Below, piece after piece: positions 2 through 45,351 of a stretch of DNA of 64,000 bases (position 1 is its first letter; each line of letters begins with the position of its first letter). The notes under the pieces are model-generated. The model was not told where the DNA came from, searched no databases, and saw nothing but the letters and a program-made list of their open reading frames with translations. The position numbers were made by a program, and so were the translations under genes. The stretch is taken from positions 1 to 64,000 of the forward strand of contig JACREZ010000024.1 in NCBI GenBank assembly GCA_016212665.1, given 5' to 3'. The stretch is from Ignavibacteriota bacterium (GTDB taxonomy: Bacteria; Bacteroidota; Ignavibacteria; UBA10030; SZUA-254).

Positions 2-349
2 TCAAACAAAAAACAATTTAACAATGTAAGCTGTGATGCATTTAAAACAGTGGCAGAAAAACCTATTTTATCTGATGACGTTCCACATGTTACTCGCTTA
101 CAAGATTGCTATCCCAATCCTTTTAACCCGGTAACCGTTATTAGTTATCAGCTATCCGAGGATGCTCATGTGAAACTCACAGTGATAGACGCTCTCGGAA
201 GAGAAGTTGCAACTCTTGTTAACGAGATGGAATCTGCCGGATACAAGTCAATTGAGTTTGACGCTTCTTCACTTCCAAGCGGCGTCTATTTCTACCGACT
301 CACTGCCGGTACGTTCACCGATATGAAGAAGATGCTTCTCGCGAAGTAG
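2..349 (+). CDS. C-terminal end of a T9SS-sorted secreted protein (partial at left edge)
   Basis: The reading frame is open to the first base of the window, so this is the tail of a longer gene; the GTG at 50 is probably an internal codon. The last ~80 residues form a type IX secretion sorting domain: YPNPFNPVTVISYQL, then LGREVATLVNE, then SLPSGVYFYRLTAG and a basic end (KKMLLAK). Known role of the domain: it directs export through the T9SS outer-membrane pore and surface attachment or release. The body of the protein, and so its function, lies outside the window. Unlike two later copies, the loop between NPFNP and LGREV has its ordinary sequence (SYQLSEDAHVKL) with no repeat insertion. A hairpin at 431-463 may be its terminator. 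Confidence 0.8.
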   Translation, partial: SNKKQFNNVSCDAFKTVAEKPILSDDVPHVTRLQDCYPNPFNPVTVISYQLSEDAHVKLTVIDALGREVATLVNEMESAGYKSIEFDASSLPSGVYFYRLTAGTFTDMKKMLLAK

Positions 350-530: not shown

Positions 531-570
531 TAAATCCGAAATTGACAATCCGAAATCCGAAATCAAAAAA
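531..570. repeat. Solo copy of the 31-41 bp dispersed repeat
   Basis: AAATCCGAAATTGACAATCC and the following bases match the core of the terminal repeats found around the four-helix-bundle gene at 43938-44401. It lies directly upstream of the ribosome-binding site of the 590-1216 gene. Confidence 0.6.
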
Positions 571-1978: not shown

Positions 1979-2046
1979 AATTGCGAAATGCGAATTGCCA
2001 ATCTCGAATGGAAAAATTCGCAATTGGCAATTCGAAATCCGAAATG
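1979..2046. repeat. Two head-to-head copies of the dispersed repeat forming a hairpin
   Basis: Between the two tRNA genes, a left copy (core GCGAATTGCCAATC) and a right inverted copy (AATTCGCAATTGGCAATTCG) lie about 5 bp apart. Together they look like the 43938-44401 cassette with no gene between its ends. Confidence 0.65.
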
Positions 2047-14881: not shown

Positions 14882-15218
14882 GATACCTGATGTGCTATCG
14901 GTTATCTTATTGCCGATGATAATACCACCGATTATGCAATCAGAATTAAAAGGCAAACTCATTTATCCAGACCCGATGAAACCGGCGGGACTTGAGTTTG
15001 AACTACCGGAAGATGCAACTGTAACAATCGAACTATTCAATGAATCAGGAGCATCGGTACAGACAGTGTTTAACCAAGCACCGATGAAAGCGGGAAAACA
15101 ATTGCTCCAATTCAACAAGTTCGGTTTGAAGGATGGCGAATACCTACTTCGTGTTATTGCCACCATCAATGGAAATGAAAACAGGATGACGAAGAAGATT
15201 TATATAAAAGAATCATGA
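14880..15218 (+). CDS. Stand-alone sorting-domain-like (FlgD-Ig-like) small protein
   Basis: A 112-residue frame whose residues ~28-110 follow the T9SS sorting-domain pattern: LIYPDPMKPAGLEFELPEDA, then TIELFNESGASVQTVF, then KDGEYLLRVIA, and a short basic/aromatic end (TKKIYIKES). No exported cargo domain precedes it. The start is uncertain: TTG at 14880, or ATG at 14916 or 14934. The hydrophobic first 20 residues (VLSVILLPMIIPPIM) could be a signal sequence. The best Shine-Dalgarno-like site belongs to a different frame at 14845, so the 5' end may be frameshifted. The stop overlaps the next ORF (ATGA). Confidence 0.55.
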   Translation: MIPDVLSVILLPMIIPPIMQSELKGKLIYPDPMKPAGLEFELPEDATVTIELFNESGASVQTVFNQAPMKAGKQLLQFNKFGLKDGEYLLRVIATINGNENRMTKKIYIKES

Positions 15219-15553
15219 ATGCATCGCACCTGAAAATATTCTTCTTCGTTAAGTGCAACTATGGTACGAAAGGCAATAATCCATGGGTCTTAGCGTGCGA
15301 AGAGGGCGGGTTTGCTTACAATCTATGGGTCTTAGCGTGCGAAGAGGGCGGGTTTGCTTACAATCCATGGGTCTTAGCATGCGAAGAGGGCGGGTTTACT
15401 TACAATCCATGGGTCTTAGCATGCGAAGAGGGCGAGTTTGCTTACAATCTATGGGTCTTCGCATACAAATACAGCCAGAAACAAACGAAATTAAGCATGT
15501 ATAATTCAAATAATTACAAATTCAATTATAACGAGGTCATTTATGCCATATAG
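15215..15553 (+). CDS. Possible repeat protein read through the 42-bp array
   Basis: A 112-codon frame built mainly of 14-residue repeats (NPWVLACEEGGFAYN). It begins in an ATGA overlap with the preceding gene and overlaps the next start by 11 bases, an arrangement typical of coupled genes. Against it, other frames are also open because the unit is a multiple of three, the repeat changes are not obviously synonymous, and no family is recognised. I hold coding at about one in four. Confidence 0.25.
   Translation: MNASHLKIFFFVKCNYGTKGNNPWVLACEEGGFAYNLWVLACEEGGFAYNPWVLACEEGGFTYNPWVLACEEGEFAYNLWVFAYKYSQKQTKLSMYNSNNYKFNYNEVIYAI
15276..15464. repeat. 42-bp minisatellite, about 4.5 units
   Basis: The unit begins AATCCATGGGTCTTAGCGTG and continues CGAAGAGGGCGGGTTTGCTTAC. 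Four copies are nearly identical, differing at a few positions (CC/CT, CGTG/CATG), and a partial fifth diverges. The period is exactly twice that of the arrays at 1600 and 38301. Confidence 0.9.
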
Positions 15554-19341: not shown

Positions 19342-21294
19342 ATGAAACAGAATTTTAAACCTGATTGTCTATCCTTGGCGGAGATTTCAATTTTTTTAAT
19401 TTTAATTCAACTTGCAATTTTTTTACCTGCGGAAGCTCAAATAACCTGGTTAGGGAATAGAATTGAAAACCCTGTAGGTATAACTGAGGATGGAAGTATC
19501 GTTGTCGGTTCGGGCATCTGTCTTATGCCTGAGATAATTCAAGACTCATCACTACCACCACCTATTCAGATATTTGAAACTATGGGTACAATAACACGTG
19601 CAAATGTCTGGAATAATGGTGTGGTTACATCACTTGGTTCGCTTGGAGGTTTAGAAAGTGAAGTAATGGGCATTTCTGAAGACGGTCAGATCGTCATTGG
19701 CTATTCAAGAAATAATGACGGATTAGAACGAGGATGCATCTGGTCAAATGGGACAATGGTTGAAATAGACTCAACTCGGGAAGGTTTATCGAAAGCTACA
19801 GGTATTTCATCGGATGGTTCAATCATTATTGGTTGGATGTTGGATGATAACGGCAAGACACTTGCATATCGCTACTCAAACGGATCATACTCTGAGCTTG
19901 GATCATCAGGAGGTGAACAGAGTATGGCAGTAAGCATCAGTATGGATGGTACAGTTATTATCGGGGACTATATAAAAATAGATGGAAAAACCAATGCATT
20001 CCGATGGACTTCAACCGGCGGGGCTGTTCTGCTCGATAGTTCAGTTAATGTTAATAGCCGCGCAGTAGGCATCAGTATGGATGGTACAGTTATTATCGGG
20101 GACTATCTAAAAATAGATGGAAAGACCCATGCATTCCGATGGACTTCAACTGGCGGGACTGTTCGGCTCGATAGTTCAGTTAATGATAATAGCCGCGCAG
20201 TAAGCATCAGTATGGATGGTACAGTTATTATCGGGGACTATCTAAAAATAGATGGAAAGACACATGCATTCCGTTGGACCCAAGCAGGCGGGATGGAAGA
20301 CCTTAATGACGTTTATAACTGTTACTTAACCGGATCATCAGAATTACTATCATGCAATGCAATTACATCAAATGGTCGTTATATTGTCGGTACCGGATAT
20401 AATGCTTCCTCCGGCCAATTAGAGGGATTTTTATTAGATACTGGTTTTCCTTCGTGTAAGAATCAACTCAGTTTTCAGGTAAGTAGTGGTTGGAACATCA
20501 TCTCTGTTCCCGGTATTCCAGCTGACTCAAATTACAGCAAGAACGCTTTATTTCCAACAGCGTCATCTCCTGCATTTACTTTTTCAAATAGTAGTGGTTA
20601 TATGGTTGAAAATACTTTACGCAACGGTGTCGGCTATTGGATGAAGTTCCCCTCTGCACAAACTATTTCGATAGAGGGTTGGAGGGGTCGAGATGAATCC
20701 CTTGCAGTAGCAACCGGATGGAACATGGTTGGTTCTATGAGTGAACGGTCGAGGGTGGAAAGTCTAACAACCGAGCCGCTCTCGATGACGACATCTTCAT
20801 TTTTTGGCTACGACCGTGGTTACTATGTAACTGAATACATTGAGCCGGGGAAAGGATACTGGGTGAAAGCGGATACTGCGGGAATAATAATTTTGAATTC
20901 CGATAGCAGTGGTTTGGCATCAAAAAATAAAATAAGGATTCAACATACATCGGAGTTACCGCCTCCACCGCCTGAAGGCGATGGCAACCTCTCCGAAACC
21001 CGGAATGCAAAACCCGAATCCTTCGCACTTGAACAGGCATATCCGAATCCGTTCAATCCTGTAACCGTTATCGGTTATCAGTTAAAAGTGAAAAGTTATG
21101 TTACGCTCAAAGTAATTGACTTGCTGGGAAGAGAAGTTGCTGCACTCGTGGAAGGAATAGAGGATGCGGGAGTATTCAGAACCGAATGGAATGCGAGTGA
21201 TGTTCCAAGTGGAATGTATTTCTACAGAATTTCCGCTCAAGGAGAAGATGGAACAACATGGAGCGATGTGAAGAAGTTTGTTCTTCTCAAATAA
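19342..21294 (+). CDS. Secreted HAF-repeat protein with T9SS sorting domain
   Basis: A 650-residue exported protein. The signal sequence spans residues ~1-33 (IFLILIQLAIFLPAEA). Residues ~35-375 are HAF repeats (ITEDGSIVVGSG; GISEDGQIVIGYS). Three consecutive repeats are almost identical at DNA level with a 135-bp period (from 19936, 20071 and 20206), showing recent internal duplication. Residues ~385-540 hold two GW-rich modules (SGWNIISVPG; TGWNMVGSMS). The sorting domain begins at AYPNPFNPVTVIGYQL and ends SDVKKFVLLK. Between NPFNP and LGREV the chain reads KVKSY, encoded by simple AAAAGTGAAAAG sequence. It follows the previous HAF gene by 60 bp, so the two form a likely operon or duplication pair. 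Confidence 0.85.
   Translation: MKQNFKPDCLSLAEISIFLILIQLAIFLPAEAQITWLGNRIENPVGITEDGSIVVGSGICLMPEIIQDSSLPPPIQIFETMGTITRANVWNNGVVTSLGSLGGLESEVMGISEDGQIVIGYSRNNDGLERGCIWSNGTMVEIDSTREGLSKATGISSDGSIIIGWMLDDNGKTLAYRYSNGSYSELGSSGGEQSMAVSISMDGTVIIGDYIKIDGKTNAFRWTSTGGAVLLDSSVNVNSRAVGISMDGTVIIGDYLKIDGKTHAFRWTSTGGTVRLDSSVNDNSRAVSISMDGTVIIGDYLKIDGKTHAFRWTQAGGMEDLNDVYNCYLTGSSELLSCNAITSNGRYIVGTGYNASSGQLEGFLLDTGFPSCKNQLSFQVSSGWNIISVPGIPADSNYSKNALFPTASSPAFTFSNSSGYMVENTLRNGVGYWMKFPSAQTISIEGWRGRDESLAVATGWNMVGSMSERSRVESLTTEPLSMTTSSFFGYDRGYYVTEYIEPGKGYWVKADTAGIIILNSDSSGLASKNKIRIQHTSELPPPPPEGDGNLSETRNAKPESFALEQAYPNPFNPVTVIGYQLKVKSYVTLKVIDLLGREVAALVEGIEDAGVFRTEWNASDVPSGMYFYRISAQGEDGTTWSDVKKFVLLK
19936..20337 (+). 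repeat. 135-bp in-frame tandem duplication, about 3 units
   Basis: Each unit begins ATCAGTATGGATGGTACAGT and encodes 45 residues starting ISMDGTVIIGDY. Units 1 and 2 differ at a few codons (Y-I/Y-L, N/H); the third ends early in FRWTQAGG. Confidence 0.9.
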
Positions 21295-25847: not shown

Positions 25848-28358
25848 TTATTTTATCAGCATCATCCGTTTCATCTCGGTCAGCGTCGTTCCGTCTTCAA
25901 TGCTTGTTGAGGTTAACTTGTAGAAATACAATCCTGAAGCAAGTGAGGAACCATCAAAACTCAGTTGGTATTCACCTTCTTCCATTTCAGCGTTGTCAAG
26001 AAGAGTTGCTACTTCACGTCCCAGCATATCATAAATTTTCAACGTCACCAATCCGAAATCGGCAATCCGAAATCCGAAATTCGTTGTCGGGTTGAACGGA
26101 TTCGGATAGTTCTGCATCAGTTCAAACTGTCTCGGTGCAAAGAATGAATAATTCTCTTCAAACGACATATTCGTTTTGGCTGTCGGTTGCTGTAAAAACG
26201 CTACATCGCTGAGCGGCTTCACACTTGAAAGTCGAATCGGGCTTTGCGTGACAAATCCAAGCGCACCGCTGAACGAAGTGTTGATGGAATCCAACCAGTT
26301 GGCGGCAGAATCATAAAGAGCAGTCGGCGTGCTTGTGTAAAAGAGTTTGAAATAGGTCAACATCGTATCAACATATTTTCCGATTTCGTACATGGATTTT
26401 CCATTGAACACATGCGTCGGGTACGACGGATGATTGAACACAAGGTCACGGAATCCTTCCTGCGTTATGTGGTGCGAACTGAGCGCCATGTTCATTCTCA
26501 GCGCCGCCAGACCACCGGCAAGTTTGTTGTTGTACTTCGAGTCTTTCGGGTTCTTTAATTCCTTCACAAAGATTTTTGTTCCGAGAACATCAAAGCCGCG
26601 TGCAGTTCCGGTTTGTGTCATAAAATCCTGAACCGTTTTCCCTTTCAGCGTGAAACGAATCCAGCCGTATGCTTTCGGACTATCATTGCGTGCGATGCCA
26701 AGAAGTAATCCTCCCGGGTAGAACGGGTCTTTTTTGCTGCTGACATTCGGAAAACCACGGATGAATGCTGTATCCCTCGCGTTCCCAAACGTCGGAGTCG
26801 ACGTCTTTGTTTTCACCGATGCTACTTCCAAGTCGGATTGCGTCAGAGTTCGAAACATCGTTGAGGGTGTAATCGCTGCTTCATACATCTTCAAAAGAAA
26901 TCCATCGGTAACACCGAAACTCTGATTTGAATTGAGAATAGCAATATTATCAAAAATCATATTCATACTGGTGAAACTGCCGGTGAGGTAGAGCGTCCCG
27001 GTTCCGTTGATGGCAACTTCATATGAACGTTCGATCCCGGTTTGCGGTTTGTCAGACTTCGCCCATACAACATTTCCATCCGTGTCATACTTCACGAGAA
27101 AGAGTTTGCTCTCCGGAGTACTTACATTCGTAAACGTTGTCGCACCGAATGTCAGAGCATCGCTATCAAAATACCCGGTGACATAACTGTTCCCCGAACC
27201 ATCAACCCCGATACTTACTCCTTCTTCCGAATACAATCCGGCGGCAGTTTTTACCCAAGCAAAATTGCCGTTCATATCATACTTAGCGAGATAAAAATCT
27301 TTGTACCCCTGATTTGGGATTTTTGTTGTGCTGAACCGAACCGTATCGCTCTCAAATGAACCGGTGATGTAAGAATTTCCTGCATTATCAATCCCCATTC
27401 CCCACGGAACATCAGCCGCCATCCAGCCTGCGCTTTTTGCCCAGAAGGCATCCAGTGTCGGACTCAATTTTGCAAGAAAAATATCAGGATACGGATTTCC
27501 ATTCGGGTGATAACCGCCAGAGTGTGTAACATGTGCAGTATCAATCATAAAAGCGCTATTGCCAAACGTGCCGCAGATAAAAATATTTCCCGAAGCATCA
27601 ATGCGGATATCGCGTCCTTCCTCTGATGCTGAATCGCCGTACGATGTAGCCCAAAGTACATTTCCGCTTGAATCATATTTTGTTATAAAAATATCGGTGT
27701 TCTTATCACCGAATGCATCGTTCGTGCTTTGATTGGTAAGCGTTGTAGCGCCAAAGGTAATCGTGTTGCTTCCGAACGAACCGATGACATACGCGTTTCC
27801 GCTGTTGTCGGTAGCGACTGCATAAGCGCTATCGCCCTGCGCTCCGCCAGCGCCCCGCAACCACAAAGCATTTCCATTTGCATCGAACTTTGCAATGAAC
27901 ATGTCTATGGATCCGCCGTTCGTGATGGTAAACGAACCGTGTGTCAATGTTGAACTCCGGTAATTACCCGTGACAAATGTATTGCCGGATGCATCCACGG
28001 CAATGCCGCGGGAATATTCAGTTTGCGTTCCGGTGATACGTTTCGCCCACTGCGCCTGTCCATGTGTATTCAATTTTGCAACGAAAATATCTTCGTTGTT
28101 CAAATCGCCTTTCATGTTGGAAAGTTTGATTTTATCGAAGGCAATTTTTGTAATGAATTGTCCCGTGAGATAGGCATTACCGTTTGCATCGGTGGCAACA
28201 CTGTAGCCAAGTTCATTATACACCCGCTCGCCGGCGCTGCGGCCCCACTCATAATGTGGAACTTGTGCCTGTACGATAACCCCGTTCAAGAGCAACACAC
28301 AGGCAATCAGGAGAAAACTGTGAATGTGTTTTTGATAAATGGTGATAAACTCTTGCAT
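25848..28358 (-). CDS. Secreted SBBP-repeat propeller protein with T9SS sorting domain
   Basis: An 836-residue exported protein. The signal peptide spans residues ~1-32 (SFLLIACVLLLNGVIVQAQ). From ~40 to ~500 there are about nine SBBP-type beta-propeller repeats (SVATDANGNAYLTGQF; AVATDNSGNAYVIGSF; DIRIDASGNIFICGTF). Residues ~510-745 are a domain of unknown function. The sorting domain begins MQNYPNPFNPTTNFGFRIAD and ends TEMKRMMLIK. The segment NFGFRIADFG is encoded by a copy of the window's 31-bp dispersed repeat (26050-26080), replacing the usual sequence before the V-x-LK-x-YD strand. Function is unknown; it is likely surface-exposed. Confidence 0.87.
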   Translation of the reverse strand: MQEFITIYQKHIHSFLLIACVLLLNGVIVQAQVPHYEWGRSAGERVYNELGYSVATDANGNAYLTGQFITKIAFDKIKLSNMKGDLNNEDIFVAKLNTHGQAQWAKRITGTQTEYSRGIAVDASGNTFVTGNYRSSTLTHGSFTITNGGSIDMFIAKFDANGNALWLRGAGGAQGDSAYAVATDNSGNAYVIGSFGSNTITFGATTLTNQSTNDAFGDKNTDIFITKYDSSGNVLWATSYGDSASEEGRDIRIDASGNIFICGTFGNSAFMIDTAHVTHSGGYHPNGNPYPDIFLAKLSPTLDAFWAKSAGWMAADVPWGMGIDNAGNSYITGSFESDTVRFSTTKIPNQGYKDFYLAKYDMNGNFAWVKTAAGLYSEEGVSIGVDGSGNSYVTGYFDSDALTFGATTFTNVSTPESKLFLVKYDTDGNVVWAKSDKPQTGIERSYEVAINGTGTLYLTGSFTSMNMIFDNIAILNSNQSFGVTDGFLLKMYEAAITPSTMFRTLTQSDLEVASVKTKTSTPTFGNARDTAFIRGFPNVSSKKDPFYPGGLLLGIARNDSPKAYGWIRFTLKGKTVQDFMTQTGTARGFDVLGTKIFVKELKNPKDSKYNNKLAGGLAALRMNMALSSHHITQEGFRDLVFNHPSYPTHVFNGKSMYEIGKYVDTMLTYFKLFYTSTPTALYDSAANWLDSINTSFSGALGFVTQSPIRLSSVKPLSDVAFLQQPTAKTNMSFEENYSFFAPRQFELMQNYPNPFNPTTNFGFRIADFGLVTLKIYDMLGREVATLLDNAEMEEGEYQLSFDGSSLASGLYFYKLTSTSIEDGTTLTEMKRMMLIK
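26050..26080 (-). repeat. Dispersed repeat copy inside a sorting-domain coding sequence
   Basis: Read on the minus strand it begins ATTTCGGATTTCGGATTGCC and matches the terminal repeat of the 43938-44401 cassette at 26 of 31 positions. It is in frame and encodes NFGFRIADFG. Confidence 0.75.
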
Positions 28359-38170: not shown

Positions 38171-38274
38171 GGAAGGAGTTCCACCGATGGCGGACAAATG
38201 AACTCCCGACCAACAGTGGTGGGTGTAACTCACCCCCAATCAACCTGTAAGGGCGAATTGCAATTCGCCCCTAC
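38171..38274. repeat. Short dispersed repeat plus GGGGCGAATTGC palindrome
   Basis: The stretch GAAGGAGTT ... CCCGACCAACAGTGGT ... GTAACTCAC recurs in shortened form at 39139-39187. The adjoining AAGGGCGAATTGCAATTCGC palindrome (38247-38274) is a separate hairpin. Confidence 0.6.
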
Positions 38275-38300
38275 CTTTTGATACCTTTTTAATCATCACC

Positions 38301-38616
38301 GCCCAAGGACAAACCGTTCCCGTCCGACTACAAACCCGTTCTGCCCGATGGCAAACCCCTTCCGCCCGATGGCAAACCCCTTCCGCCCGACGGCAAACTC
38401 TTCCCGCCCGATGGCAAACTCTTCCCGCCCGATGGCAAACCCCTTCCGCCCGATGGCAAACCCTTCCTGCCCGATGGCAAACCCTTTCTGCCCGATGGCA
38501 AACCCTTCCTGCCCGATGGCAAACCCTTTCTGCCCGATGGCAAACCCTTCCCGCCCGACGGCAAACTCTTCCCGCCCGATGGCAAACTCTTCCGTAACTT
38601 GGTACAAACCTTCCGT
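38301..38616. repeat. 21-bp minisatellite, about 15 units
   Basis: Units of 21 bp with consensus CCCGATGGCAAACCCTTCCG plus one base, degenerate at both ends (GCCCAAGGACAAACCGTTCC; AACTTGGTACAAACCTTCCG). Two unit types, CTCTTCCCG and CCCTTCCTG, alternate in blocks. Frames stay open on both strands (FAIGQKG on the minus strand, MANPFRP on the plus strand), with no ribosome-binding site for either. Treated as non-coding. Confidence 0.92.
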
Positions 38617-38686
38617 ACAGCGTAAAAAGGGCATTTTCAAAAATGACTTTCTAAACTTACCTATTTTTGCAGGTTGTTAAGTACCA

Positions 38687-39568: not shown

Positions 39569-40600
39569 TTATTTGACAATTTGTAACATTTTTGTTTGCA
39601 AATAACTTCCTACAGTCAATCTGTAGTAGTACACCCCACTCGGCAATCCGCTTGCATCCCATGTAACAAAATGTTCACCCGGGCTTTTCATTTCATTCAC
39701 GAGTGTTGCTACTTCCTGACCAAGTACATTAAAAACTTTCAGAGAAACAAATTCGAAATTGGCAATCCGAAATTCGAAATTCGTCGCGGGATTAAAAGGA
39801 TTCGGATAATTCTGATACAACGCAAATCCGGATGGCACGTCTTCTTCTCCATTGACAGCGTTCGGATTGAAGGCGACCAGTTCTCGTCGCACCCCGGGAA
39901 TCGTGAAGGAAATCGTGTCAGTCGTTGCGGGGATTTCCACAGAAACCGCTGACCGCGCGTGTTTGACAATCCATGTGTTTTGTGCTATCCAGAATGTATC
40001 AACCATGGTAAAGAATGGGATAAAGGGACCGAAGATTGTTGTACCGACCTGTTCGATGATATTAAAACGAGCGGCTGTAAATGTACCTGCCGGAACGATG
40101 ACTTCATCGTTCAGAGTTTCACGGTCGCCTGAAATTCTTATCGCAACAGGAATCGTGAGGGTATCAAAAGTAATTGTCGTGTCCCATTCAATAATAGTCC
40201 AATCCGGTGTAAAGCCGGAGTTAAACTTAAATGACAACAGCCATTGCGGAGGCGGCACGTCAATCATCGTATCGAGCGGTGGTGGAAGTGTCGGGAGATA
40301 GACAAACGCGTTCGCCCCCTCGAATGCAAAGGAGGATGTACCGCTCGGAACTCCGCTTTCGAGTCGAGATTGTATTGTGTACGCGTTCTTTCCATTAATG
40401 GTCGAGTAAGCGGCAACGCTATCAATTTCCCGATATTCTGAGCCGGTCATAACCGTATCGCCAGCGCCGAGCATTACTCCGTCGAATGTCCATGTTGTGC
40501 CGATGGAATTTGGAAAATAATTTGATGCCTGGGAGAACAGGAGTGTTGATGAAATCAAAACCAAGAAAAGAATGGCTGAGATTGTAGCAAGATGTTTCAT
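39569..40600 (-). CDS. Secreted protein with T9SS sorting domain
   Basis: A 343-residue exported protein. The signal peptide is residues ~1-23 (AILFLVLISSTLLFSQ). The body (~25-255) is beta-rich with no family I can name (YFPNSIGTTWTFDGVMLGAG; VIVPAGTFTAARFNIIEQ), resembling lipoprotein-like domains that open with a TTWTYE/Y-type motif. The sorting domain starts LYQNYPNPFNPATNFEFRIA and ends QTKMLQIVK. The NFEFRIANFEF segment is encoded by a copy of the dispersed repeat (39750-39780) that matches the 43938-44401 terminal repeat at 29 of 31 positions. Confidence 0.83.
   Translation of the reverse strand: MKHLATISAILFLVLISSTLLFSQASNYFPNSIGTTWTFDGVMLGAGDTVMTGSEYREIDSVAAYSTINGKNAYTIQSRLESGVPSGTSSFAFEGANAFVYLPTLPPPLDTMIDVPPPQWLLSFKFNSGFTPDWTIIEWDTTITFDTLTIPVAIRISGDRETLNDEVIVPAGTFTAARFNIIEQVGTTIFGPFIPFFTMVDTFWIAQNTWIVKHARSAVSVEIPATTDTISFTIPGVRRELVAFNPNAVNGEEDVPSGFALYQNYPNPFNPATNFEFRIANFEFVSLKVFNVLGQEVATLVNEMKSPGEHFVTWDASGLPSGVYYYRLTVGSYLQTKMLQIVK
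39750..39780 (-). repeat. Dispersed repeat copy inside a sorting-domain coding sequence
   Basis: On the minus strand it begins ATTTCGAATTTCGGATTGCC. Differences from the cassette terminal repeat at 43938 are only at positions 11 and 25 of 31. In frame, encoding NFEFRIANFE. Confidence 0.85.
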
Positions 40601-40636: not shown

Positions 40637-40766
40637 GAGCGGTTTCCGAATCCACAATTGAGTCATTGCGATCCCGCTTTAGCGGGAGAAGCAATCCCAT
40701 TTCCTTTCGATATTCGATTGTGAGATTGCTTCGCTACGCTCGCAAAGACAATTCGGCAACGCGTTC
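40637..40766. repeat. Dispersed palindromic element, family D, copy 2
   Basis: Related to 22112-22240: AGTCATTGCGA, GAAGCAATCCC, GAGATTGCTTCGC and CGCAAAGACAATTCGG in the same order. The ends GAGCGGTTTCCGAAT and ATTCGGCAACGCGTTC are imperfect inverted repeats. Confidence 0.75.
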
Positions 40767-43361: not shown

Positions 43362-43518
43362 TTTCCTTTTTATCAACTATCATTATCGGGATATTATCTT
43401 TGATTTGATATTCCTGTCCGCAGGAAGTGCAACAGAGCAAGTTCTTCTCTGAACGATAGTTCAAATCAGATTTGCAGACAGTGCAACATAAAACAGAAAG
43501 TAATTCGGGTGTAAGCAT
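43348..43518 (-). CDS. Trm112-like small zinc-ribbon protein
   Basis: A 56-residue protein: MLTPELLSVLCC, two cysteine pairs (CTVCKSDL and CTSCGQEY) and the family end YQIKDNIPIMI, the pattern of Trm112/YcaR proteins (ICPxC ... CxxCxxxYxIxDGIPxML). In eukaryotes and archaea Trm112 activates methyltransferases; the role of bacterial copies is less clear. It starts in a TAATG overlap with the thioesterase stop and overlaps the nadC start, so it is an integral part of this operon. Its small size makes it easy to miss. Confidence 0.82.
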   Translation of the reverse strand: MLTPELLSVLCCTVCKSDLNYRSEKNLLCCTSCGQEYQIKDNIPIMIVDKKENEHE

Positions 43519-43931
43519 TATTGTTGTAGATAGTTATTGATTGCCTGCAGAAAGAATTCAGGCGTACGTGTCGGTTTGTTTGTTGAAGCATTAAGAAAAC
43601 TATGAACGGTATGTCCTGTTGCAAACAATTCTTTTGTTTCGTTGTTAAGGACTTCGTACTCAATGCGTAGCCGCGCTTGCGGCAGTTCCTTAAAAATAGT
43701 TTTCACAACAAGTTCATCATCGTATCGAGCCGACTTGAGATAATTCGCATGCGCTTCAATCACCGGAAGAAAGAATCCGCGCTTCTCGATTTCAGGATAC
43801 GGCAATCCAATCATTCGAAGTAGATCCGAACGCCCCTGCTCGAAGTACTCGAAGTATCTTCCATAATACGCGAATTTCATCTGGTCCGTATCAGCGTAGC
43901 GAACGCGGATTGTTGTTTCAGATACTACCAT
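43518..43931 (-). CDS. Acyl-CoA thioesterase, 4HBT (YbgC/FadM-like) family
   Basis: A 137-residue hot-dog-fold thioesterase. Family features: TTIRVRYADTDQMKFAYYGRY with the catalytic Asp of the YADTDQM motif, then FEYFEQGRSDLLRMIG, and the late strand RIEYEVLNNETKELFATGHTVHSF. Substrates of such enzymes range from short to long acyl-CoA or acyl-ACP; the Tol-Pal-linked YbgC type is possible, but no tol genes are near. The ATG lies only 6 bp from the left end of the four-helix-bundle cassette. Confidence 0.9.
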   Translation of the reverse strand: MVVSETTIRVRYADTDQMKFAYYGRYFEYFEQGRSDLLRMIGLPYPEIEKRGFFLPVIEAHANYLKSARYDDELVVKTIFKELPQARLRIEYEVLNNETKELFATGHTVHSFLNASTNKPTRTPEFFLQAINNYLQQ

Positions 43932-43937
43932 TGCGGG

Positions 43938-43978
43938 ATTTCGAATTGCGGATTGCCAATTGCGAATTCGTTATTGAA
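43938..43978 (+). repeat. Left terminal inverted repeat of the four-helix-bundle cassette
   Basis: 41 bp beginning ATTTCGAATTGCGGATTGCC. It is complementary to 44361-44401 at 39 of 41 positions, the two differences being adjacent (CG against TA at positions 32-33). Confidence 0.9.
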
Positions 43979-43986
43979 GAATTGAA

Positions 43987-44340
43987 TTACTTCCCCCATT
44001 TTGCAGTTTTGCCGGACGCAGTGAAGATTGCAGTTAATTCCTTCGCCTCATTTAACAACGGAAGTACAACACTTTCTTTTAGTAGATTTGAACCAATGAT
44101 TAGTTCATGCCAAAATTGAGATTCATCTGCCTCTTCCTTAACTACAGTAATCTTAGAAATAAAATCTGCCTTTGACCGCGCTTTACAGGCAGACCTGTAA
44201 TATGCGCCGACGGATGTCGCACAACGTATCAATTGTCTTCCTAGAACATCTCCCGTTCTTCCATTTGGTAATGTTTCGACAAGTTTGATTACGTTCAATG
44301 CAAACTTTTTTGTTCTCGTCTTCATTTCATCGGGTGTCAT
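43987..44340 (-). CDS. Four-helix-bundle protein (23S rRNA intervening-sequence protein family)
   Basis: A 117-residue protein of the four-helix-bundle / S23 family first found inside 23S rRNA intervening sequences. Family pattern: FALNVIKLVETLPNG, then GRQLIRCATSVGAYYRSACK, then SKADFISKITVVKEEADES and FWHELI. Homologues are basic, pentameric and presumed to bind nucleic acid; the Avd accessory protein of diversity-generating retroelements has the same fold. No reverse transcriptase or rRNA gene is near. Its cellular role is unknown. The 41-bp inverted repeats on both sides suggest the gene and repeats travel together. Confidence 0.9.
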   Translation of the reverse strand: MTPDEMKTRTKKFALNVIKLVETLPNGRTGDVLGRQLIRCATSVGAYYRSACKARSKADFISKITVVKEEADESQFWHELIIGSNLLKESVVLPLLNEAKELTAIFTASGKTAKWGK

Positions 44341-44360
44341 ACAAACCTCATACTAAATCA

Positions 44361-44401
44361 TTCAATAATAAATTCGCAATTGGCAATCCGCAATTCGAAA
44401 T
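44361..44401 (-). repeat. Right terminal inverted repeat of the four-helix-bundle cassette
   Basis: It begins TTCAATAATAAATTCGCAAT on the plus strand and ends with GAAAT; the last base is also the first base of the accA stop codon complement (TTA at 44401-44403). Confidence 0.9.
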
Positions 44402-45351
44402 TATTCCTCAAACTCTCCCATCTTCGAATACTTCTCAATCCGTTTCTCAATCAACTTGTCCGGTTTGATTTTCATTAACTTTTCGATTTCTTCTGTGAGA
44501 ACTTTTTTGAGGGTTTCTGCCGCCATCGGTGGATTACGATGAGCGCCACCAATCGGTTCGGGAATGATCCGGTCAATGATTCCCTGCGCGAGTAAATCGG
44601 GCGCGGTGAGTTTGAGCGCCTCCGCCGCTTGTTCCTTGTATTCCCAACTTCTCCAGAGAATGCTTGAACATGATTCCGGAGCGATAACGGAGTACCAACA
44701 ATTTTCCATCATCAACACACGGTCGCCGAGACCGATACCAAGCGCGCCGCCCGATGCACCTTCACCAATAATGGTGATGATAATCGGAACGGGAAGATGC
44801 GACATCGTAAACAAGTTTCGGGCAATCGCTTCCGCTTGTCCTCGCTCTTCTGCTTCAAGTCCCGGATATGCCCCGGGTGTATCAATCATCGTAATAATCG
44901 GGCGATGAAACTTTGCCGCGAGTTTCATGAGGCGAAGCGCTTTTCGATATCCTTCGGGATTCGGCATTCCGAAATTCCGGTACAGATTTGATTTGGTATC
45001 ACGCCCTTTCTGCATTCCGATGACCATGACAGGTTGTTCATTGAGTCGGGCGAACCCTCCAACGATTGCTTTATCATCGCGGAAACCACGGTCTCCATGT
45101 AACTCAATGAAATCCGTTGTTATCATGTTGATATAATCGAGCGTATATGGTCTGTCCGGGTGCCGCGCAAGTTGAACTTTCTGCCAGCGTGTTAACCGCG
45201 AGTAGATATTCTTCCGGAGGTCCTCGACTTTCGCTTCGAGTTTGTGAATCTCGTTTCCGATGTCGAGCCGGTCACTGTATTTCCGCATCTCCTCGATTTT
45301 TTGTTCGAGTTCGATAATCGGTTTTTCAAAATCTAAAACTGCTTTTGCCAT
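44401..45351 (-). CDS. accA: Acetyl-CoA carboxylase carboxyltransferase subunit alpha
   Basis: The alpha subunit of the carboxyltransferase that transfers CO2 from biotin to acetyl-CoA, the first step of fatty-acid synthesis. It has 316 aa, the normal size. Signatures: N-terminal [92 protein letters not shown] and [19 protein letters not shown]. The beta subunit (accD) is not in the window. The 3' end touches the right repeat of the four-helix-bundle cassette. The thioesterase downstream fits a lipid-related operon. Confidence 0.97.

Follow-up and report, generated by a model that had tools for sequence, protein, structure and literature searches.

A 31-nt DNA element that is dispersed through the genome of an Ignavibacteriota bacterium lies in frame within the sorting domain of a T9SS cargo gene. 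The reading favoured here, with a probability of about 0.7, is that the element belongs to the class of heptanucleotide tracts, that it replaces the hairpin sequence of the sorting domain, that several families of such tracts use the same codons, and that the copies stay uniform in DNA sequence, most likely through gene conversion. The analysis covered the window (the whole stretch of 64,000 nt), the genome from which it was taken (3.9 Mb, 45 contigs), a sister genome of the same genus as the comparison, and draft genomes as relatives.

The element in the window and in the genome

The C-terminus encoded by the gene 39569-40600 was matched by PF18962 (31.7 bits, cut-off 27) and TIGR04183 (41.6 bits, cut-off 23). 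The minus strand from 39780 to 39750 is ATTTCGAATTTCGGATTGCCAATTTCGAATT, and its frame, (A)AT TTC GAA TTT CGG ATT GCC AAT TTC GAA TTT, gives NFEFRIANFEF. The respective features of the window were as follows.

39569..40600, minus strand: T9SS cargo gene with a C-terminal Por_Secre_tail sorting domain (profile match)
39750..39780, minus strand: 31-nt heptamer element, NFEFRIANFEF, in frame in the sorting domain, units ATTTCGA-ATTTCGG-ATTGCCA-ATTTCGA-ATT
26050..26080, minus strand: element copy, NFGFRIADFG, in the T9SS gene 25848-28358, at the same codon position as in 39569-40600
21067..21099, plus strand: tract of a second heptamer family, GTTATCGGTTATCAGTTAAAAGTGAAAAGTTAT, in the T9SS gene 19342-21294, on the same codons as the element
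137..169, plus strand: decayed second-family tract, VISYQLSEDAH, in the sorting domain 110-337, on the element's codons, weak when taken alone (p=0.087)
43938..43968, plus strand: element, left terminal copy of an IVP cassette
43987..44340, minus strand: 23S_rRNA_IVP (PF05635) gene within the cassette
44371..44401, minus strand: element, right terminal copy of the IVP cassette, inverted
533..563, minus strand: intergenic element copy
1980..2010, plus strand: intergenic element copy that forms the left arm of a hairpin pair without a gene, the arms being about 6 nt apart
2015..2045, minus strand: intergenic element copy, right arm of the hairpin pair 1980-2045

The cassette end 43938-43968, ATTTCGAATTGCGGATTGCCAATTGCGAATT, was identical to 39750-39780 at 29 of 31 positions, and five element matches with at most 3 mismatches were found in the window against 0.00 expected from dinucleotide shuffles. 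The preliminary description had stated that a near-identical match links an intergenic repeat with a coding segment and is very unlikely by chance, and both statements were borne out. An exact search with the sense sequence AACTTTGAG... gave no match, because its codons had been guessed. That description had also taken the domain 110-337 as an ordinary one for comparison, which needs correction: the DNA of its SYQLSEDAHVKL segment, GTTATTAGTTATCAGCTATCC, is a tract of 7-nt period (15 of 21 lag-7 matches), while the synonymous-codon test on it was not significant.

The element, ATTTCGGATTTCGGATTGCCAATTTCGGATT, consists of four 7-nt units similar to ATTTCGG, followed by ATT. In the genome its pattern was matched 64 times and the reversed pattern 0 times, and about 45 copies lay outside sorting domains in the DNA fetched from this genome. 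When the noncoding copies, which occur in both orientations, were aligned, only 31 nt were common to them (ATTTCGGATTKCGRATTGCCAATTKCGRATT); just beyond these, the information is down to about 0.2-0.3 bit. The coding copies cover exactly these 31 nt. Exactly four units were counted in 28/28 coding and 33/45 other tracts, four being also the detection minimum for loci picked by a four-unit pattern. Inverted pairs of the element were formed by the IVP cassette and by 1980-2045. Tracts of 7-nt period with many unit sequences are abundant in the genome; in the window, lag-7 runs numbered 13, with 3 at lag 8 and 0 at lags 4-6 and 9-12. A genome-wide scan with the exact pattern returned two named genomes only.

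Several other arrays were recorded. Long uniform ATTTCTG heptamer arrays occur in an order-level relative (G023:C24:222913-223034 and C33:1-122). In the window, 38257-38629 and 1570-1877 are long arrays with a 21-nt step, in 12 and 10 copies, possibly of three heptamers each; 19927-20331 in the T9SS gene 19342-21294 is a 135-nt repeat (45 codons) present three times in tandem; and 15236-15487, within the ORF 15215-15553, contains five tandem copies with a 42-nt step.

Replacement of the first hairpin of the sorting domain

Among 191 candidate sorting domains of this genome, part of which were fetched, 150 were scored and 105 distinct ones were read. The latter were divided into class 1 with the element (28), class 2 (36, an upper figure, as this class was defined by the looser VI(R/S)YQL pattern of the GTTATCA heptamer family) and neither (41). 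With the carriers counted, as the preliminary description had proposed, codon, phase and orientation of the element were identical in all 28 of them, and the first codon of the segment was likewise identical in all classes. The segments of class 1 had a lag-7 identity of 0.77, those of class 2 one of 0.59 and the remaining segments one of 0.31; downstream, the value was about 0.28. In the synonymous-recoding test, 38 of the 105 segments reached significance on their own (p of about 0.01 or less), against none of the 105 control segments.

The loop comprised 11 residues in 27 of the 28 carriers and in every ordinary domain of this genome; 11 residues was the length in all classes, the two exceptions, one per heptamer class, being the longer insertions of L112 and L111. 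Since the length is constant with or without the element, the element replaces the sequence of the first hairpin and is not inserted into it. The AlphaFold2 model of the sorting domain (pLDDT 83, six strands), which has the form of a beta-sandwich, placed residues 24-34 as a strand, a turn and the start of the next strand, i.e. the first beta-hairpin; among the weak matches obtained with this model by Foldseek were the mirolase CTD 8qb1 and PorZ 5m11 (E about 0.01-0.02). The suggestion of the preliminary description that one repeat inserts into, or is spread with, coding DNA at a tolerant loop is thus retained as to the dispersed-repeat DNA in the coding segment, and is to be revised as to the rest: a strand-turn-strand is replaced at constant length, at least two heptamer families occupy the same codons, and the element is also present in housekeeping genes. 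The insertions of L111 and L112 are extra, G+C-rich and partly palindromic, lie in the turn of the first hairpin and, on comparison with the window, matched no window repeat.

The unit of class 2, GTTATCA, is equivalent to the known TAACTGA repeat in reverse reading, and the reverse reading of TAACTGA is given the peptide LSVISYQ in the accessible text of MacGregor (2015, PMC4679880). One form of class 2 had 10 near-exact copies, all within sorting domains, and another form had 16 matches, with five loci outside sorting domains. Because noncoding copies are so few (five near the sorting-domain form), a dispersed origin is less well supported for class 2.

Codon constancy, inheritance and the rival explanations

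Residue-matched codon identity among 27 carriers was 0.914 in the segment (0.42 expected on codon usage) and 0.52 and 0.45 in the flanks, with a slight excess in the closest flanking codons and with the synonymous sites approaching background one or two codons away from the element; ordinary domains had no excess (0.41, expected 0.36). In the seven pairs of orthologues whose two members both carry the element, synonymous change was 7% in the segment against 41% in the flanks (p=9e-8), whereas the ordinary pairs had 40% and 34%, respectively (not significant). By these data the coding segment was shown to be DNA of a dispersed repeat, not a protein motif of ancestral origin. A motif conserved with varied codons had been named beforehand as the observation that would speak against a repeat, and as the codons are near-constant inside the segment, both within the genome and between orthologues, and saturated outside it, this objection fails. 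Filtering of the coding copies by selection at the protein level was likewise shown, as G at position 4 or 25, by which Phe becomes Cys, was absent from all 30 coding copies but present in 18 of 27 noncoding ones (p=1.5e-8).

For the comparison of orthologues, 28 pairs were formed between this genome and the sister genome. L080/L239 and L083/L222 have ATTTCGG units in one species and GTTATCA units in the other, with constant length and conserved flanks, and L081/L263 has GTTATCA units against an ordinary hairpin, with constant length and recognisable flanks on both sides. The comparison of orthologues with and without the repeat, also proposed at the outset, revealed that in L080/L239 and L081/L263 the segment alone was exchanged. 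In other pairs, e.g. L154/L243 and L168/L206, the whole tail differs. Pairs of at least 60% identity with the element in this genome shared it with the sister genome in seven of nine cases, the sister-genome set being 48 domains partly chosen from contigs with element hits, by which class 1 is over-represented. On a domain tree built without the segment, class 1 needed 19 changes against 29-37 for shuffled labels, a count that is raised by tree error from the shortness of the domains. The clustering on the tree and the seven orthologue pairs sharing the element indicate that much of the spread was inherited and did not consist of new arrivals; the carrier state is partly inherited and partly turned over.

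Two simple accounts were rejected on the orthologue data. A separate recent arrival in each gene does not suffice as the sole account, since seven of the nine pairs share the element, and a swap of the whole domain does not apply to all 28 pairs, since L080/L239 and L081/L263 changed in the segment only.

The sequence of events proposed is the following. As 7 and 3 have no common factor, each of the three frames of a perfect heptamer tract yields an identical peptide of 7 residues (NFGFRIS when read in one direction), so that such a tract seldom breaks a reading frame. The peptide of the NFGFRIS direction alternates like a beta strand, and copies replacing the first strand-turn-strand would have been retained because this peptide can form the hairpin. 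Selection on the protein removes bad variants of the element, and several heptamer families have taken the same codons. As to how a tract is first written into a gene, the preferred guess is that it was copied by template switching and that selection for hairpin length followed; mobilisation is the alternative. Gene conversion among the repeat copies (concerted evolution) would hold them alike, and we infer that it is the homogeniser.

The rival that presses most directly on this last step regards the coding copies as functional sites at the DNA or RNA level, for example for protein binding, whose own selection, and not gene conversion, fixes the sequence. Selection on the sequence itself would give an equally low synonymous divergence between orthologues, the orientation is fixed in the sorting domains, and heptamer tracts have been proposed elsewhere as sites of a translational regulator (in the accessible part of PMC4679880). 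However, about 40% of the sorting domains have neither heptamer family, the orthologues swap families and the noncoding copies lie in both orientations; the family swaps and the domains with neither family render conversion more likely than selection at the nucleotide level, and the rival is considered rather doubtful. That the whole sorting domain was the unit of spread, being duplicated or converted with the segment carried along, is in agreement with the clustering of carriers on the tree, with the phase and length common to all copies and with the slight codon excess in the nearest flanks, but it is unlikely in view of the return of synonymous sites to near background so close to the element and of the segment swaps between two retained flanks. 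By far the least probable is an ancestral or convergent protein motif, in which NFGFRI(A/S)(N/D)F would be a favoured beta-hairpin and the intergenic copies coincidental or derived. The fit of the segment to a structural hairpin, its constant length and the lack of Phe to Cys variants in coding copies are what such a motif predicts, but the near-fixed codons inside a segment with saturated surroundings, the recurrence of these 31 nt in noncoding copies that have no flanks in common, and the presence of the element in unrelated enzymes are against it.

IVP cassettes, other genes and known repeat systems

In rRNA intervening sequences, a PF05635 gene lies between inverted repeats with the potential to pair as a stem. 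The window cassette 43938-44401, which lies in the accA/thioesterase locus (43518-45351), is alike in that the element forms 91% inverted ends around its 23S_rRNA_IVP gene. It differs in being free-standing and not part of an rRNA, and in having heptamer tracts as its inverted repeats, the unit of which varies by locus. Inverted flanks that beat every shuffle were found for 10 of 11 IVP genes in this genome and, in a sample from the order, for 14 of 29, and period 7 was the best in 17 of the 21 inverted arms long enough to test. Of the own pairs of flanks, 16 of 34 reached an inverted-flank score of 34, as did only 0.4% of the crossed-flank pairs; the 23 control genes in the window scored at most 24. 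The heptamer unit differed at most of the IVP loci (window 43938-44401; L061-L071; L294-L322).

The ends of the window cassette and the inverted, usually heptameric flanks of the other IVP genes would fit an origin of the element as the end repeat of IVP cassettes, whose movement brought it to the sorting domains. This origin is improbable, because the heptamer changes from one IVP locus to the next, no cassette was seen within a sorting domain, and neither movement nor an empty site was shown. Slightly less probable again is a dedicated process of copying which would write heptamer tracts, without change of length, into the fixed hairpin of the sorting domain and into further loops at protein surfaces. 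IVP cassettes between their inverted heptamer tracts would act as its carriers or helpers, so that tags and core enzymes would be periodically rewritten with changing units.

Twenty further places outside sorting domains were fetched, and in six of them a copy of the element was recorded within a long ORF. The respective genes are listed below.

Leucyl-tRNA synthetase, LeuRS (L345): element in frame
TsaB (L349): element in frame, in opposite orientation
MutS (L353): element in frame
M24 peptidase (L358): element in frame
Sodium symporter ORF (L343): element copy within the ORF
LptD-like protein (L342): element copy just upstream of the likely start

Relatives of LeuRS, TsaB, MutS and the M24 peptidase without the element have short loops at those sites. 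The TsaB loop of the sister genome contains ACTCACC-type heptamer units and the MutS loop of G001 contains AATCAGA-type units; loops of the LeuRS, TsaB and MutS type accept several repeat families.

The nearest known system is that of the Rickettsia palindromic elements (Ogata et al. 2000, 2002), which, as far as they are covered by the review PMC10969869, are also dispersed repeats in several families, in frame in unrelated and often essential genes at sites tolerated by the fold. According to the same source, they are about 150 bp long and palindromic and they insert, whereas the element described here is 31 nt of heptameric direct units, replaces sorting-domain sequence at constant length and has taken over a single structural element across dozens of paralogous domains. 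The TAACTGA direct repeats, with a 7-nt period, are mostly intergenic and occur in several lineages (MacGregor 2015, PMC4679880), and a heptanucleotide class of long simple sequence repeats was described by Mrazek (2007, as cited in PMC4679880). The seven-nucleotide period and the many dispersed tracts are shared with the repeats described here, and the peptide of the second family is that of TAACTGA in reverse. They differ in that the coding cases of TAACTGA in the accessible text of PMC4679880 are mostly short hypothetical ORFs or protein ends, and that use in sorting domains, a conserved loop position, family swaps and invasion of core enzymes are not described there. In the literature on T9SS with intergenic repeats, IVP with inverted repeats and Ignavibacteria with heptamers, no account of this combination was found.

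On the favoured reading, the replacement of the sorting-domain hairpin by heptamer tracts, noncoding repeat DNA has, within a single genome, repeatedly been turned into a structural component of protein domains, and the fact that a perfect tract encodes an identical peptide whichever frame is read would explain why heptamer repeats can enter genes. More than 100 paralogous sorting domains, together with their orthologues, provide a natural replicate in which the arrival and homogenisation of tracts can be measured. If the same is true in other lineages, hairpin 1 of the T9SS tag would be a test site for repeat mobility, for gene conversion over about 30 bp and for the tolerance of a fold.

In the sister genome, the LeuRS loop (G002, L385) contains, in place of the element, a different dispersed repeat, palindromic and with the core CCCGCTTTAGCGGG. 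It is likewise in frame and also occurs in the intergenic DNA near 40662-40697 of the window, with 32 of 35 nt matching.
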